This document shows, one piece after another, positions 1,451 through 21,549 of a DNA stretch of 64,000 bases. Origin of the DNA: Nodosilinea sp. PGN35 (GTDB lineage Bacteria > Cyanobacteriota > Cyanobacteriia > Phormidesmidales > Phormidesmidaceae); the NCBI RefSeq assembly GCF_029109325.1, contig NZ_JAQKQJ010000003.1:124001-188000 (forward strand), given 5' to 3'. Below the pieces are notes generated by a model, which was not told the origin of the DNA, did not search any database, and worked only from the letters and a program-made list of their open reading frames with translations. Each line of letters opens with the position of its first letter. Within the stretch, counting starts at the first letter, position 1. Made by a program: the position numbers and the translations under genes.

Positions 1451-4060
<2,610 letters not shown>

Positions 4061-4446
4061 GGCGCTAAATCCCAGGGAGGGTGGCCCTTCCCCTTCCCTG
4101 GCCCCTTCCCTGGCCCCTTCCCTGAGATGTGAATCTTTGAAACAAGCCGCAGCGATTTAGAAAGCTACGGTTGCGGGGCTCCCGCTCGGTTTGGCAATAT
4201 AGCGATATGGGCATTTCTACTGGCAGCGCTAGTATAGGTGCAAAAGCGGTTTTCCGTAAGTTTTCGGTATCCATTGGGCACACTGTTAGTAGCACGGCAC
4301 GCCGACCGAGGTGGTTATGTCTCGTATCCCTACGCTAGTCTGTGGGTTAGGCGTGTCCGTAGTTGGTCACCAATCAGGAGCATCCTAGCGGCGGGCCGGA
4401 ACTTTCCGGAGGAGCGCTGGTTTATCAATATCAAGTGGGGTTCCCT
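4061..4446. other. Intergenic region between clpB and the ComFB-like gene
   Basis: At 4078-4125 a C/T-rich stretch holds about three tandem copies of a CCTTCCCTGGCC unit just after the clpB stop. The rest contains no convincing ORF. Near 4395-4415 there is a short hairpin (CCGGAA-CT-TTCCGG) that would lie in the 5' leader of the downstream gene. I see no recognisable riboswitch. Confidence 0.5.
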
Positions 4447-18692: not shown

Positions 18693-18921
18693 GGCAACGT
18701 CTCCTTAATACCCACGAGGCCGCAACTGGGCTGGCCTGCCCTTAAATTATCGCACGGCCAGATTTTTGGGCTGTCTCTCGTTTGGGCAGCATCCGCCCGC
18801 CAGAACCCTAGCCGATCTGGCGTATCCATCCCTATACCCCAGGCGGGTACGTGACTCCCCCCCTCAAGGGGCGGTTCTCTTTCACCGACAACACCTTACC
18901 TTGCGCCTACCTTGAAAGGGT

Positions 18922-19569
18922 ATGAGGCTTAAGGTACTTCCTTTGACGACATCGCTGCAATCTCCCTCCCTCCCATCGAGTGACCTGGCTCGGCTACTGA
19001 ACATTCAAGAGATTTACTACGAACCCGCTGCGCTGGATTACCCTCGCGGCCAGGACATGCTGGCTAAGTATCCCGACGCACAGCTGATTGAGGTTGCTTC
19101 CCATTGGAATATCCCAGACCTGCACGGCAATGAGGGCTCCGTAGAAGACTGGAATCGCATCAAGCGCACGGTGCTGGTGCTGGGAGTGAAGAAGTCGCTG
19201 CAAGCGCGCCCCAACAGCCGCAGCTCCGATTTCGTGGCCCCGTCCCATGCCAACGGGTGCGCGATGGCATGCGCCTACTGTGTGGTTTCCGGCACGCTAA
19301 TTTCTACTCCGAAAGGCCCAGTACCCGTTGAGCAAATTCGGGATGGAGACGAAGTATTTGCCTACGATAGTTCTTCGGCACAGCTCGTAGTAGCTGTCGT
19401 TTCTGGAACGGCTGAACGGGTCGTTGACGAAGTGCTTGAAATTCAGGTTGGTGACACAGTACTTCGTGTAACGGCTGAGCACCCTGTAATGACTCGTAGA
19501 GGGTGGGTAAAAGCAGGAGATCTAACTGAAGACGATGAAGTTCTGTGTGATGATGACCACATAGAGTGA
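18922..19569 (+). CDS. Spore photoproduct lyase-family protein, N-extein half fused to split-intein IntN
   Basis: Residues 1-119 are the N-terminal part of a cyanobacterial SPL-family radical-SAM protein (YYEPAALDYPRG, SSDFVAPSHANGCAMACAY). They supply only the first two cysteines (113 and 117) of CX3CX2C. Residue 120 is Cys1 of an intein N-fragment that runs to the stop. The protein therefore cannot hold its 4Fe-4S cluster alone and is presumed to trans-splice with the product of the gene at 20152-21033. An SD-like GAAAGGG precedes the ATG. The last 266 bp overlap an antisense HNH endonuclease frame. No in-frame continuation to the C-half exists, because the + strand between 19570 and 20151 has multiple stops. 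Confidence 0.9.
   Translation: MRLKVLPLTTSLQSPSLPSSDLARLLNIQEIYYEPAALDYPRGQDMLAKYPDAQLIEVASHWNIPDLHGNEGSVEDWNRIKRTVLVLGVKKSLQARPNSRSSDFVAPSHANGCAMACAYCVVSGTLISTPKGPVPVEQIRDGDEVFAYDSSSAQLVVAVVSGTAERVVDEVLEIQVGDTVLRVTAEHPVMTRRGWVKAGDLTEDDEVLCDDDHIE
19279..19566 (+). other. Split intein N-fragment (IntN, 96 aa)
   Basis: The fragment begins CVVSGTLISTPKGPVPVEQI, intein block A with catalytic Cys1. It contains block B as VTAEHPV (Thr65-x-x-His68) and ends in an acidic tail DLTEDDEVLC...DDDHIE. The 96-residue length and the position of the break after block B are like known natural IntN fragments (about 90-125 residues). Confidence 0.92.
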
Positions 19570-20122
19570 TGCCATTATCTACAGCCAAAGCAAATTGCGG
19601 AAATAAGGCAACTGGAATGATGTGGTGAGCTTGTAAAATCTCAGTGCTACTGCAGCATCGACAAAGAGTGTCTCGCTGAATTACGCTTCCAGACCACTGT
19701 TTTCCAGCCTTTCTATGCCTGAATGTTTGTTTAGCACTGCCATCTACAAAATTAGGATTGCCATTTGATCGGTGCTTATTAGAAATGATTTTTGCTTGTG
19801 CTTTTCTGCCCTCACCAGCCTTGGAGCAAATAGGACAATAGTTATTTCTGTTCTCGTGAGCCTTGAATCCTTGGTCGCAAACCTTACAGTGCTGTAGTTT
19901 TACATGGAGGTTCAGTAGAGACTTGTCAATTGAAAACAGAACTCCCTCGTACTGACGGATGCTTCTTACATCCTTGCCAAGATATTGGCTAGCCTGACGG
20001 TAGGAGTAAAAGCTGCGGAAAGGCTTGGCTAGCATCTCCCCATGAAGACTACGACAAAGAGAACTGCAAAAGTTTTCCTGTGTTGCGTGCTTTCCACACC
20101 AAACACAATTGTGTCTAATCAT
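19304..20122 (-). CDS. HNH endonuclease, antisense between the intein halves
   Basis: The 272-codon frame lies on the opposite strand between the two split-gene halves. Paired cysteines suggest two zinc knuckles (C6/C9/C19/C23 and C79/C82/C96/C99), followed by an HNH module: CRCC 154-157, AHHI with His166/167, VDNG Asn183, LCGHHHTELH 187-196. It is A+T-richer than flanking genes, as expected for a mobile nuclease. The HNH fold ends at about 19535. The remaining ~75 codons read antisense through IntN and may be only a by-product of overlap. A plausible promoter (TTGTAA, 18 bp, TAAGAT) lies within IntC coding DNA on this strand. The presumed role is homing of the IntN-HNH-IntC block. Confidence 0.85.
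   Translation of the reverse strand: MIRHNCVWCGKHATQENFCSSLCRSLHGEMLAKPFRSFYSYRQASQYLGKDVRSIRQYEGVLFSIDKSLLNLHVKLQHCKVCDQGFKAHENRNNYCPICSKAGEGRKAQAKIISNKHRSNGNPNFVDGSAKQTFRHRKAGKQWSGSVIQRDTLCRCCSSTEILQAHHIIPVALFPQFALAVDNGITLCGHHHTELHRLQLDLLLLPTLYESLQGAQPLHEVLCHQPEFQALRQRPVQPFQKRQLLRAVPKNYRRQILRLHPEFAQRVLGLSE
20103..20114. promoter_or_regulatory. 12-bp perfect palindrome near the endonuclease start
   Basis: ACACAATTGTGT is a perfect palindrome located in the first codons of the HNH gene and about 40 bp before the IntC-gene ATG. Its position between two opposed gene starts suits an operator or autoregulatory site. This is inference from symmetry and place only. Confidence 0.25.
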
Positions 20123-20151
20123 CGATCGAGAAGTACAACCGATCTAATCTT

Positions 20152-20268
20152 ATGCCAAGTTACAAGAAGATTACAAGTATTAAACGGATTCAAGCGACTA
20201 CAAAAGTCCACAACTTTCATGTGCCAGGACACGAATCTTATGTGGCTAATGGAATCGTCACCCATAAC
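20152..20268 (+). other. Split intein C-fragment (IntC, 39 aa)
   Basis: The fragment has block F (VHNFHVPGHESYVANGI) and block G (VTHN) with penultimate His38 and terminal Asn39, followed by Cys at +1. It starts directly with ATG. A 35-40-residue IntC with its own start codon is the hallmark of natural split inteins. Confidence 0.93.
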
Positions 20269-21033
20269 TGTTACGTAGCCCGCAGAAAAGGCTTTGCCAA
20301 CCCGATCACCACCTTTGTCAACATTGAGCAGAATCTGCGCTACATTCGCCGCCATGCCGGGCGACAGGGCACCAAGCCAGAACCCAACCAGGTCGACCCC
20401 CAGTACTGGGTGTACGAGATCGGTGAGAACAGCGACTGTTCGGTCGATGCCGCCCTCTGCGACAACGTGAAGGACCTGATGGCGCTGTTTCGCGATCTGC
20501 CCAACGCGAAGGCCACCTTTGCGACCAAGCGCGTGAACCGCGAGTTGTTGACCTACGACCCCCAGGGCAAGACCCGCCTTCGCTTTAGCCTGATGCCCCA
20601 GTCGAAGGCAGCGGTGGTCGATATTCGAACGTCGCCGATTAGCGATCGCATTGCCGCCATCAACGACTTTGTCGATGCTGGCTACGAGGTGCACGTCAAC
20701 TTCGCGCCCGTGATCTACTACGAGGACTGGCTGGCCGACTACCGGCAGCTGTTTGCAGAAATCGACGATACCCTTTCACCCCAGGCCAAAGCGCAGCTCC
20801 AGGCCGAGGTCATTTTCCTGACCCACAACGATCGCCTGCACGAGGTCAACCTCGGCTGGCATCCCCAAGCCGAAGACCTGCTGTGGCAGCCCGGTTTACA
20901 GGAGACCAAATTCTCCCAGACCGGCGGCAAGAATGTGCGCTACAGGCGCGGCCTGAAGGGCACGCTGGTCGACGGGCTACGGGAGCTGCTGGAGCAGCAA
21001 TTGCCCTACTGCACCATCCGCTACGCCTTTTAG
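20152..21033 (+). CDS. Split-intein IntC fused to the C-extein half of the spore photoproduct lyase-family protein
   Basis: ATG 20152 starts a 293-residue protein. Residues 1-39 are IntC; from Cys40 onward the SPL-family C-part begins CYVARRKGFANP. Cys40 is both the +1 splicing nucleophile and the third cysteine of the radical-SAM CX3CX2C motif. The C-extein (254 aa) plus N-extein (119 aa) make a 373-residue protein, close to the usual length of this family. SPL-family enzymes use S-adenosylmethionine radical chemistry, classically to reverse the spore photoproduct in DNA; the cyanobacterial version has no demonstrated substrate that I know of. No strong SD is visible before this ATG, so expression may be weak or coupled in some other way. 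Confidence 0.9.
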   Translation: MPSYKKITSIKRIQATTKVHNFHVPGHESYVANGIVTHNCYVARRKGFANPITTFVNIEQNLRYIRRHAGRQGTKPEPNQVDPQYWVYEIGENSDCSVDAALCDNVKDLMALFRDLPNAKATFATKRVNRELLTYDPQGKTRLRFSLMPQSKAAVVDIRTSPISDRIAAINDFVDAGYEVHVNFAPVIYYEDWLADYRQLFAEIDDTLSPQAKAQLQAEVIFLTHNDRLHEVNLGWHPQAEDLLWQPGLQETKFSQTGGKNVRYRRGLKGTLVDGLRELLEQQLPYCTIRYAF

Positions 21034-21042
21034 CTGCCTGGG

Positions 21043-21549
21043 CTACTCGGCAAAGCAAAATTCCCTGGCCAACTCCCACGGCCCCCTGCGGTAGTACCAC
21101 AGCAACAGGCCCTCGCCCCGCCCCCTCAGAGATTGCCACTGCGCGTTTAGATCTTCGTAGAACTGGCGGGCCGTTTCGGGCTTTACTTTGTTTTGAATGG
21201 TGATGTGGGGGCAGTAGCCCTGGCGATCCTGGGGAATGAGCCATTCGTCCCAGGTGGTGGCCAGGGTGCTGTGTAGCTGCATCAGCTCCGGGGCGCTAAC
21301 GCCGATGGCGACGCCGTTGCCAAAGAACTGGAGCGACGGCAAGGCCACAGGAAAAGGCTGAGTCTGGGCGCACAGGGTGCTCAGGGTGTGGGCAATAGCC
21401 GTTTCCTGGTCGCCCGGCAGCTGATGAAACAGCATGATGTGGGCAGGTACCACATTGCGCTCTGGGGGAAAGTGCTGCTGGCGCAACTGGTTGGCTCGCT
21501 CAAAGGTAGGTTGATCTAATTTCAGCGTCAAAAGCAGAGAAGTACTCAT
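21043..21549 (-). CDS. 2'-5' RNA ligase/LigT-like phosphoesterase family protein
   Basis: The 168-residue protein has the 2H fold pattern. The second motif is intact (PHITIQ, His115-x-Thr117). The first reads AHIMLFH (His37-x-Met39), so the usual Thr/Ser of the first HxT is replaced. 2H enzymes act on 2',3'-cyclic phosphate or 2'-5' linked RNA ends. The altered first motif, if real, could change the activity. It is convergent with the split SPL gene, with only 9 bp between stops. Confidence 0.82.
   Translation of the reverse strand: MSTSLLLTLKLDQPTFERANQLRQQHFPPERNVVPAHIMLFHQLPGDQETAIAHTLSTLCAQTQPFPVALPSLQFFGNGVAIGVSAPELMQLHSTLATTWDEWLIPQDRQGYCPHITIQNKVKPETARQFYEDLNAQWQSLRGRGEGLLLWYYRRGPWELAREFCFAE

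Follow-up and report, generated by a model that had tools for sequence, protein, structure and literature searches.

In the DNA stretch analysed here, 64,000 nucleotides (nt) of the cyanobacterium Nodosilinea sp. PGN35 (contig NZ_JAQKQJ010000003.1, positions 124,001 to 188,000; hereafter the window), a gene of the spore photoproduct lyase (SPL) family of radical-SAM enzymes is broken into two genes, each carrying one half of an intein (IntN and IntC) at the break. We propose, with a probability of about 0.85, that this broken gene is a mobile fractured gene, in which the halves would be trans-spliced and an antisense HNH-type endonuclease would cut intein-free copies. The initial annotation had placed an antisense endonuclease in the DNA between the halves; the open reading frame (ORF) is indeed present but is not confined to the gap, as it passes through 263 of the 288 nt of IntN, so that a single stretch of DNA appears to encode both proteins. 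The elements of the locus, in window coordinates, are as follows:

18922-19569, plus strand: N gene, 215 amino acids (aa), N-extein followed by IntN (ORF call)
18922-19278, plus strand: N-extein, 119 aa, SPL-family radical-SAM, ending in NGCAMACAY (TIGR03886, Pfam SPL)
19279-19566, plus strand: IntN, 96 aa; C1 at 19279-19281, block B TAEH at 19471-19482, stop codon at 19567-19569
20122 down to 19304, minus strand: HNH-type endonuclease ORF, 272 aa, with 14 homologues; stop codon TAG at 19304-19306
19304-19566, both strands: overlap of IntN (plus) with the tail of the HNH protein (minus), 263 of 288 IntN nt
20152-21033, plus strand: C gene, 293 aa, IntC followed by C-extein (ORF call)
20152-20268, plus strand: IntC, 39 aa, with a separate start codon and ending in VTHN at 20268 (TIGR01443); Cys+1 at 20269-20271
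20269-21030, plus strand: C-extein, 254 aa, starting with Cys+1, the third cluster cysteine (TIGR03886); stop codon at 21031-21033

The interrupted host gene

The two plus-strand genes of 119 + 96 and 39 + 254 aa described in the initial annotation were both recovered as ORFs. The C gene alone matches the NCBIfam model TIGR03886 over profile positions 82-346 with 447.8 bits, above the family cut-off of 437.55, and the N gene matches positions 1-96 with 154 bits, a value below the cut-off since only part of the family is present. The N-extein scores 53.5 bits against Pfam SPL. The intein is located within the CxxxCxxC motif, at its third cysteine (NGCAMACAY / intein / CYVARRKG). Because this third cluster cysteine is at the same time Cys+1, the full motif is in place in neither half as long as they are unspliced. 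A contiguous product spliced in cis had been called impossible, and this holds given the plus-frame stop codon at 19567-19569. Comparison with sister strains, suggested in the initial annotation, found an intact, uninterrupted gene in four genomes of the same genus, where it reads NGCAMACSYCYVARRKG. An intact second copy had been named there as a possible sign of a dead remnant; a search of the 6.39-Mb genome (estimated 100% complete) gave no second copy of this SPL subfamily, and only a distant, uninterrupted SPL paralogue (G000:C2:264656-265663, 80 bits to TIGR03886).

Intein halves and splicing residues

All residues of a class 1 intein are present, namely C1, the block B TxxH motif, the penultimate histidine, the terminal asparagine and Cys+1, and those that the initial annotation had pointed out (Cys1, TAEH, and VTHN followed by Cys+1) were located in the two proteins. 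C1, T65 and H68 of IntN are invariant in an alignment of 17 rows, as is the HN-C junction of IntC and C-extein in one of 11 rows. IntN scores 18.6 bits against TIGR01445 (cut-off 24.5), and passes the cut-offs of PT-HINT (37 bits) and Hint_2 (35 bits); IntC reaches 23.5 bits against TIGR01443 (cut-off 15.6). As in natural split inteins, the halves lie in separate ORFs with a stop between them and a start codon for each. Among the matches listed, most C halves have their start codon 38-40 aa ahead of Cys+1, some being longer.

A structural model is available for the cis relative P0099 (mean pLDDT, the predicted local distance difference test, 84.0). In Foldseek it matches the SPL structure 4fhc with a target TM (template modelling) score of 0.89, and its intein part resembles the NpuDnaB intein 4o1r (target TM 0.90, root-mean-square deviation 1.5). 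The model, which describes a cis relative and not the two-chain form of the window, supports a DnaB-like intein inside an SPL fold. In the database, the N halves P0008 and P0012 go under the name 'polymorphic toxin-type HINT domain-containing protein', an apparent misannotation of IntN.

The antisense endonuclease and its overlap with IntN

The last histidines of the HNH motif fall inside the overlap: the codon of H192 is located opposite IntN residues 90-91 and that of H196 opposite residues 86-87. The motif residues HH166/167, N183 and H192/H196 are kept in 20 of 21 rows and are also present in the ORF of row 21, L167; the corresponding C-terminal part is retained in those homologues that reach over it. 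In the AlphaFold2 model of the endonuclease (mean pLDDT 83.3), residues 181-270 have block means of 78-95 and the antisense-encoded tail is modelled mostly as helices.

In all 34 loci with this architecture the endonuclease frame stays open over IntN, where each of the other two antisense frames contains 1-7 stops. These loci were picked by their IntN and C-extein matches and not by the endonuclease, with the exception of L169 and L173, which came from the endonuclease scan. The equivalent frame is open in none of 57 control intein-like N regions (1-14 stops; Fisher 9e-26, with rows that are not independent). The controls derive from 120 loci matched by IntN, of which 42 also match the endonuclease; from the other 78, 21 were dropped for a short match or a repeated sequence. 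The remaining 57 have no match to this endonuclease and are more distant (26-40% identity), and some are not proven inteins. Random synonymous recoding of 21 loci with the codon usage of the exteins keeps the frame open with a probability of 0-0.10 per locus. With the IntN proteins held fixed, the antisense-encoded tails of five bacterial pairs share an identity of 0.68-0.80 against 0.30-0.39 under the null (z 7.8-8.5), and one viral pair has a z of 7.9.

Fourfold-degenerate sites were compared in the 13 loci of this set with a long C-extein. Their agreement is higher in IntN than in the exteins in 10/10 bacterial pairs (eight with p<0.05), 35/40 bacterial-viral pairs (13 with p<0.05) and 27/28 viral pairs (21 with p<0.05). 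For the window and L136, 21/31 such sites agree in IntN and 14/80 in the exteins (p 1.5e-6). The GC content at third codon positions in the window is 0.35 in IntN versus 0.69 and 0.80 in the exteins. Taken together, the recoding nulls and the fourfold-site conservation support, at the level of sequence, a dual coding of IntN and HNH protein in the same DNA.

Some loci deviate in their endonuclease or exteins. In L179 (G545, 3664-4434) the N-terminal zinc-finger part of the HNH protein lies in a different frame from the remainder, possibly a first step of endonuclease decay or else a sequence error. In the viral loci L058 (4887-6718) and L056 (4984-6705) the HNH ORF overlaps the start of the IntC gene too, and the N-extein of L058 counts just 38 aa from the listed start, so the SPL protein there seems N-terminally truncated. 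A further minus-strand ORF of 191 aa at the window locus (20119-20694) matches neither Pfam nor NCBIfam, and we regard it as spurious.

Recurrence and distribution

A search with the N half gave 79 proteins among 125 candidates. One of these (P0071, a Ktedonobacteraceae record) is a cis form and the other 78 carry IntN without IntC or a C-extein behind it, some of them being fragments. In 66 of the 78 the protein ends exactly 96 aa past C1. Such a number of N halves, with such a constant end, makes the split more than a matter of chance, bearing in mind that the search was restricted to 0.55-1.75 times the query length, which put full-length cis or intact proteins out of its reach. N halves with a named source come, among others, from Leptolyngbya, Oculatellaceae, Rubrobacter and Abditibacteriota. 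The C-half search yielded 105 proteins among 133 candidates, of which 45 are C halves, 20 have a cis mini-intein and 40 are intact; P0104 (long start) and P0124 (a fragment starting inside IntN) are ambiguous among the 45.

At the DNA level, the order N gene, antisense HNH gene, C gene is common to the Rubrobacter metagenome-assembled genome L033, the cyanobacterial loci L136, L167 and L168, and IMG/VR contigs. This recurrence in other genomes and contigs makes the assembly error that the initial annotation had considered very unlikely. In total, at least 34 IntN sequences that differ in their DNA and come with an SPL C-extein show the architecture, five of them bacterial and at least 29 from IMG/VR; the viral counts are lower bounds, as the viral IntN scan covered 80 of 151 loci. 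All 34 are split, with 943-1010 nt from C1 to Cys+1, and in 31 the stop codon of the HNH gene starts 22 or 25 nt past the first base of C1. Four loci stand outside this set (L059, L064, L110 and L176), having no SPL C-extein match or a cut IntN; the endonuclease frame is open through IntN in L059 and L176 as well, and L064 and L110 run into contig ends.

Among whole genomes the element is rare. A strong IntN match occurs in 2/386 genomes of the phylum, 3/388 of the class and 1/63 of the order, the last being the window's own genome, which is counted each time. One close locus was returned when 84,980 genomes were scanned, non-exhaustively, for exact matches to two short peptide patterns. The endonuclease has weak matches in six phage records. 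Matches of the N half to plasmids end at the extein or at most 3 residues beyond it in 15 of 16 cases, and one match to a Bacillus splB reaches residue 141.

Apart from the SPL element, 15 IMG/VR loci (L081, L085, L087, L093, L096, L098, L100, L113, L114, L116, L117, L120, L128, L130 and L133) contain ORFs ending or cut 87-100 aa past an intein-like C1. They are candidate split inteins in other genes, and the antisense frame equivalent to that of the HNH protein is open in none of them.

Split, cis and empty alleles

In a tree of 122 C-exteins of at least 180 residues (L033 left out), split, cis and intact states are interleaved; its bootstrap is unsettled, with 29 inner branches open and several long rows. 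The nearest relative of the window gene is the intact P0158 (92.9% over the C-extein, 89.2% over the N-extein). The cis form P0099 and the intact P0189 are identical in 254/254 C-extein and 108/109 N-extein residues and thus differ in 1 of 363. In the IntN tree (FastTree, with many weak forks) cis forms appear at several places amid split ones, for example P0099 next to P0009 and P0125 next to P0017. Since the antisense position and its stop are nearly constant in the 34 loci, we infer that the split form with HNH is the older one, and that cis mini-inteins arose repeatedly by loss of the gap.

The same IntN occurs in a second radical-SAM host, the AmmeMemoRadiSam enzyme (TIGR04337; P0072, P0073, P0074 and P0078), and at a matching cysteine motif in the proteins P0067 and P0068, which are not assigned to a family. 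On a 548-kb IMG/VR contig (L176, 5824-7256) an AmmeMemoRadiSam N half (91.5 bits to TIGR04337, 29.2 bits to TIGR01445) is overlapped by an antisense HNH gene that is itself broken into two frames; a C half was not seen in the stretch examined. IntN also has a weak match (22 bits, E 6e-5) to the profile NF038136 of Rv2578c-type intein-containing radical-SAM proteins, far below the cut-off of 700 bits; this profile describes one protein of 574 residues and hence a cis form.

Comparison with known systems

Fractured genes are defined by a free-standing endonuclease gene between two intein halves, and this is the arrangement of the window locus. Dassa et al. in 2009 reportedly found conserved enzyme genes interrupted by a split intein and a free-standing endonuclease gene, the hosts being phage-like gp41, NrdA/J and IMPDH genes and the endonuclease belonging to another family. 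The present case differs from these in its radical-SAM host, its occurrence in bacterial chromosomes and IMG/VR contigs, and its HNH-type endonuclease, which here is antisense and overlaps IntN. The cyanobacterial DnaE split intein is likewise chromosomal and trans-splicing; its halves lie far apart, and it is not known to have an endonuclease or an antisense overlap. Endonucleases of the EDxHD/Vsr-like family occur in fractured genes, and that of the window, being of HNH type, does not belong to it. We do not treat that family as defining, because an HNH gene is also found in the case of phage MIJ3, whose polB gene carries a split intein, the two parts of which flank a gene for an HNH homing endonuclease (PMC6892783). 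HNH genes in fractured genes are thus not unprecedented, which corrects the initial annotation, where other endonuclease families had been noted for them. The MIJ3 HNH gene is on the same strand and overlaps polB by 8 nt only (annotation LR588166), in contrast to the antisense HNH gene of the window with its 263-nt overlap.

The ShiLan element resembles the window locus in that a hidden, out-of-frame homing HNH overlaps a second coding frame (PMC11855218). There, the HNH is in a third frame of the same methylase insertion, which by that account has no detectable splicing domain and is thus no intein. In T4-type split genes a free-standing endonuclease has inserted at a critical position and left the gene as two separate coding regions; the published account describes reassembly of the halves with no intein involved, and gives 11-24 bp for the overlaps with the ORF upstream (PMC2988022). 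The portions available of PMC3229294, PMC6293099, PMC7090010, PMC3322345, PMC10448857, PMC3653736, PMC4031507, PMC7765530 and PMC2988022 do not describe the present arrangement. In the open literature, with subscription journals and preprints outside the scope, we found no publication on SPL with an intein or split intein, and among the papers listed by broader searches none was recognised as describing the arrangement, in agreement with the initial annotation, which knew of no such arrangement in an SPL-family gene; its reading of a split intein flanking an endonuclease ORF in such a gene is supported by the sequence. As fractured genes are already known, what we rate as new is an antisense-entangled fractured gene.

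Proposed mechanism and alternative explanations

In the proposed mechanism, the two halves would be translated separately from the N and C genes, and trans-splicing via C1, TxxH, HN and Cys+1 is predicted to rejoin them and to restore CxxxCxxC. The HNH protein is predicted to cut an intein-free copy of the gene, upon which the whole module would be copied in. The DNA shared by IntN and HNH would tie the endonuclease to the split form, and a return to the contiguous cis form would go with loss of the endonuclease gap, as the cis mini-intein relatives suggest. With odds a little better than even, we extend this to an entangled homing element, in which the intein and the nuclease, catalytic histidines included, occupy opposite strands of one stretch of DNA, so that decay of either would damage its partner; it would be locked in the split form while the nuclease is kept, collapse repeatedly to cis upon its loss, hop among radical-SAM cysteine motifs and shuttle between viruses and bacteria of several phyla.

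Several observations weigh against these readings. The two remaining antisense frames (o0 and o1) are open by chance in 16/57 and 5/57 controls. The tail identity has a z of just 2.1-3.3 in the other 9 of 15 pairs (bacterial-viral or involving the divergent viral L056), and 6 of 78 pairs lack a fourfold-site excess. Because the sequences compared are related, and therefore not independent, and the nulls take no account of common ancestry, the p-values serve as guides only. The endonuclease scores 20.1 bits against Pfam HNH_2 (cut-off 21 bits) and likewise stays below the gathering threshold for NUMOD1; no NCBIfam endonuclease model matches the 272-aa ORF, two viral endonucleases scanned against Pfam have no HNH match, and Foldseek with the endonuclease model returns nothing below E 0.001. 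The HNH label thus draws on the motif together with matches that fall below threshold. Viral status is taken from IMG/VR, with a PHROGs match for 4 of 10 neighbouring ORFs tested (L058, L056), and the C half has no match among 50,697 named phage records. A simple promoter/terminator scan found no promoter-like site. No synteny exists with the intact same-genus copies, and the three flanking genes of the window that were compared are unmatched in the stretches covered of nine other loci. With flanks that are not syntenic, transfer of the whole gene is a possible origin at this locus, indistinguishable from homing.

Among the alternatives, the intein could have been domesticated as a switch, splicing at the iron-sulfur cysteine serving as a redox or damage sensor with the endonuclease being secondary. 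Inteins have been discussed as sensors, and more than one radical-SAM host has the insertion precisely at a cluster cysteine; yet the patchy presence, where exteins that are close or near-identical occur in split, cis and empty alleles, looks like a mobile parasite, and we regard a domesticated switch as unlikely. It is quite unlikely that only the split intein is real, the antisense frame over IntN being accidental and the true endonuclease shorter or dead. Such a view would accommodate the chance opening of other antisense frames in some controls, the N-terminal part out of frame in G545, and the internal start predicted for some database endonucleases (242-250 aa; P0085, P0087-P0090). The internal-start versions, however, lose the end opposite to the overlapping tail. 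This tail contains the last histidines of the HNH motif, is conserved above the synonymous null and confidently modelled, and the contrast between 34 open frames in 34 loci and none in the controls speaks against an accident.

A dead remnant, that is, a degraded cis intein with halves that no longer splice, would fit the IntN score below the TIGR01445 cut-off. This is highly unlikely in view of the exact 96-aa end in most N halves, the retention of C1, TxxH, HN and Cys+1, the 45 C halves (two ambiguous) as against 20 cis and 40 intact forms, and the fact that no further member of the gene's subfamily was found in this genome. Joining of the halves by an RNA intron, or a split that is an assembly artefact, has no observation in its favour and can practically be dismissed, since no Rfam intron model matches in 18700-21300 (one sub-threshold match is to a non-intron model) and the same structure is present in other genomes and contigs. 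On these grounds assembly error, dead copy, RNA intron and chance antisense frame were rejected.

Implications

For annotation, the mobile fractured gene proposed here calls for a database correction, given that some N halves are named as toxins and the overlapping gene has probably been missed by gene callers. The 78 N-half database clusters, fragments included, would offer protein engineering a sizeable supply of natural split inteins. If the proposed entanglement is true, the locus would be a natural case of a sense-antisense overlap of two enzymes, and one case in which a homing endonuclease escapes its expected decay by having its frame woven into a protein that the host gene needs.

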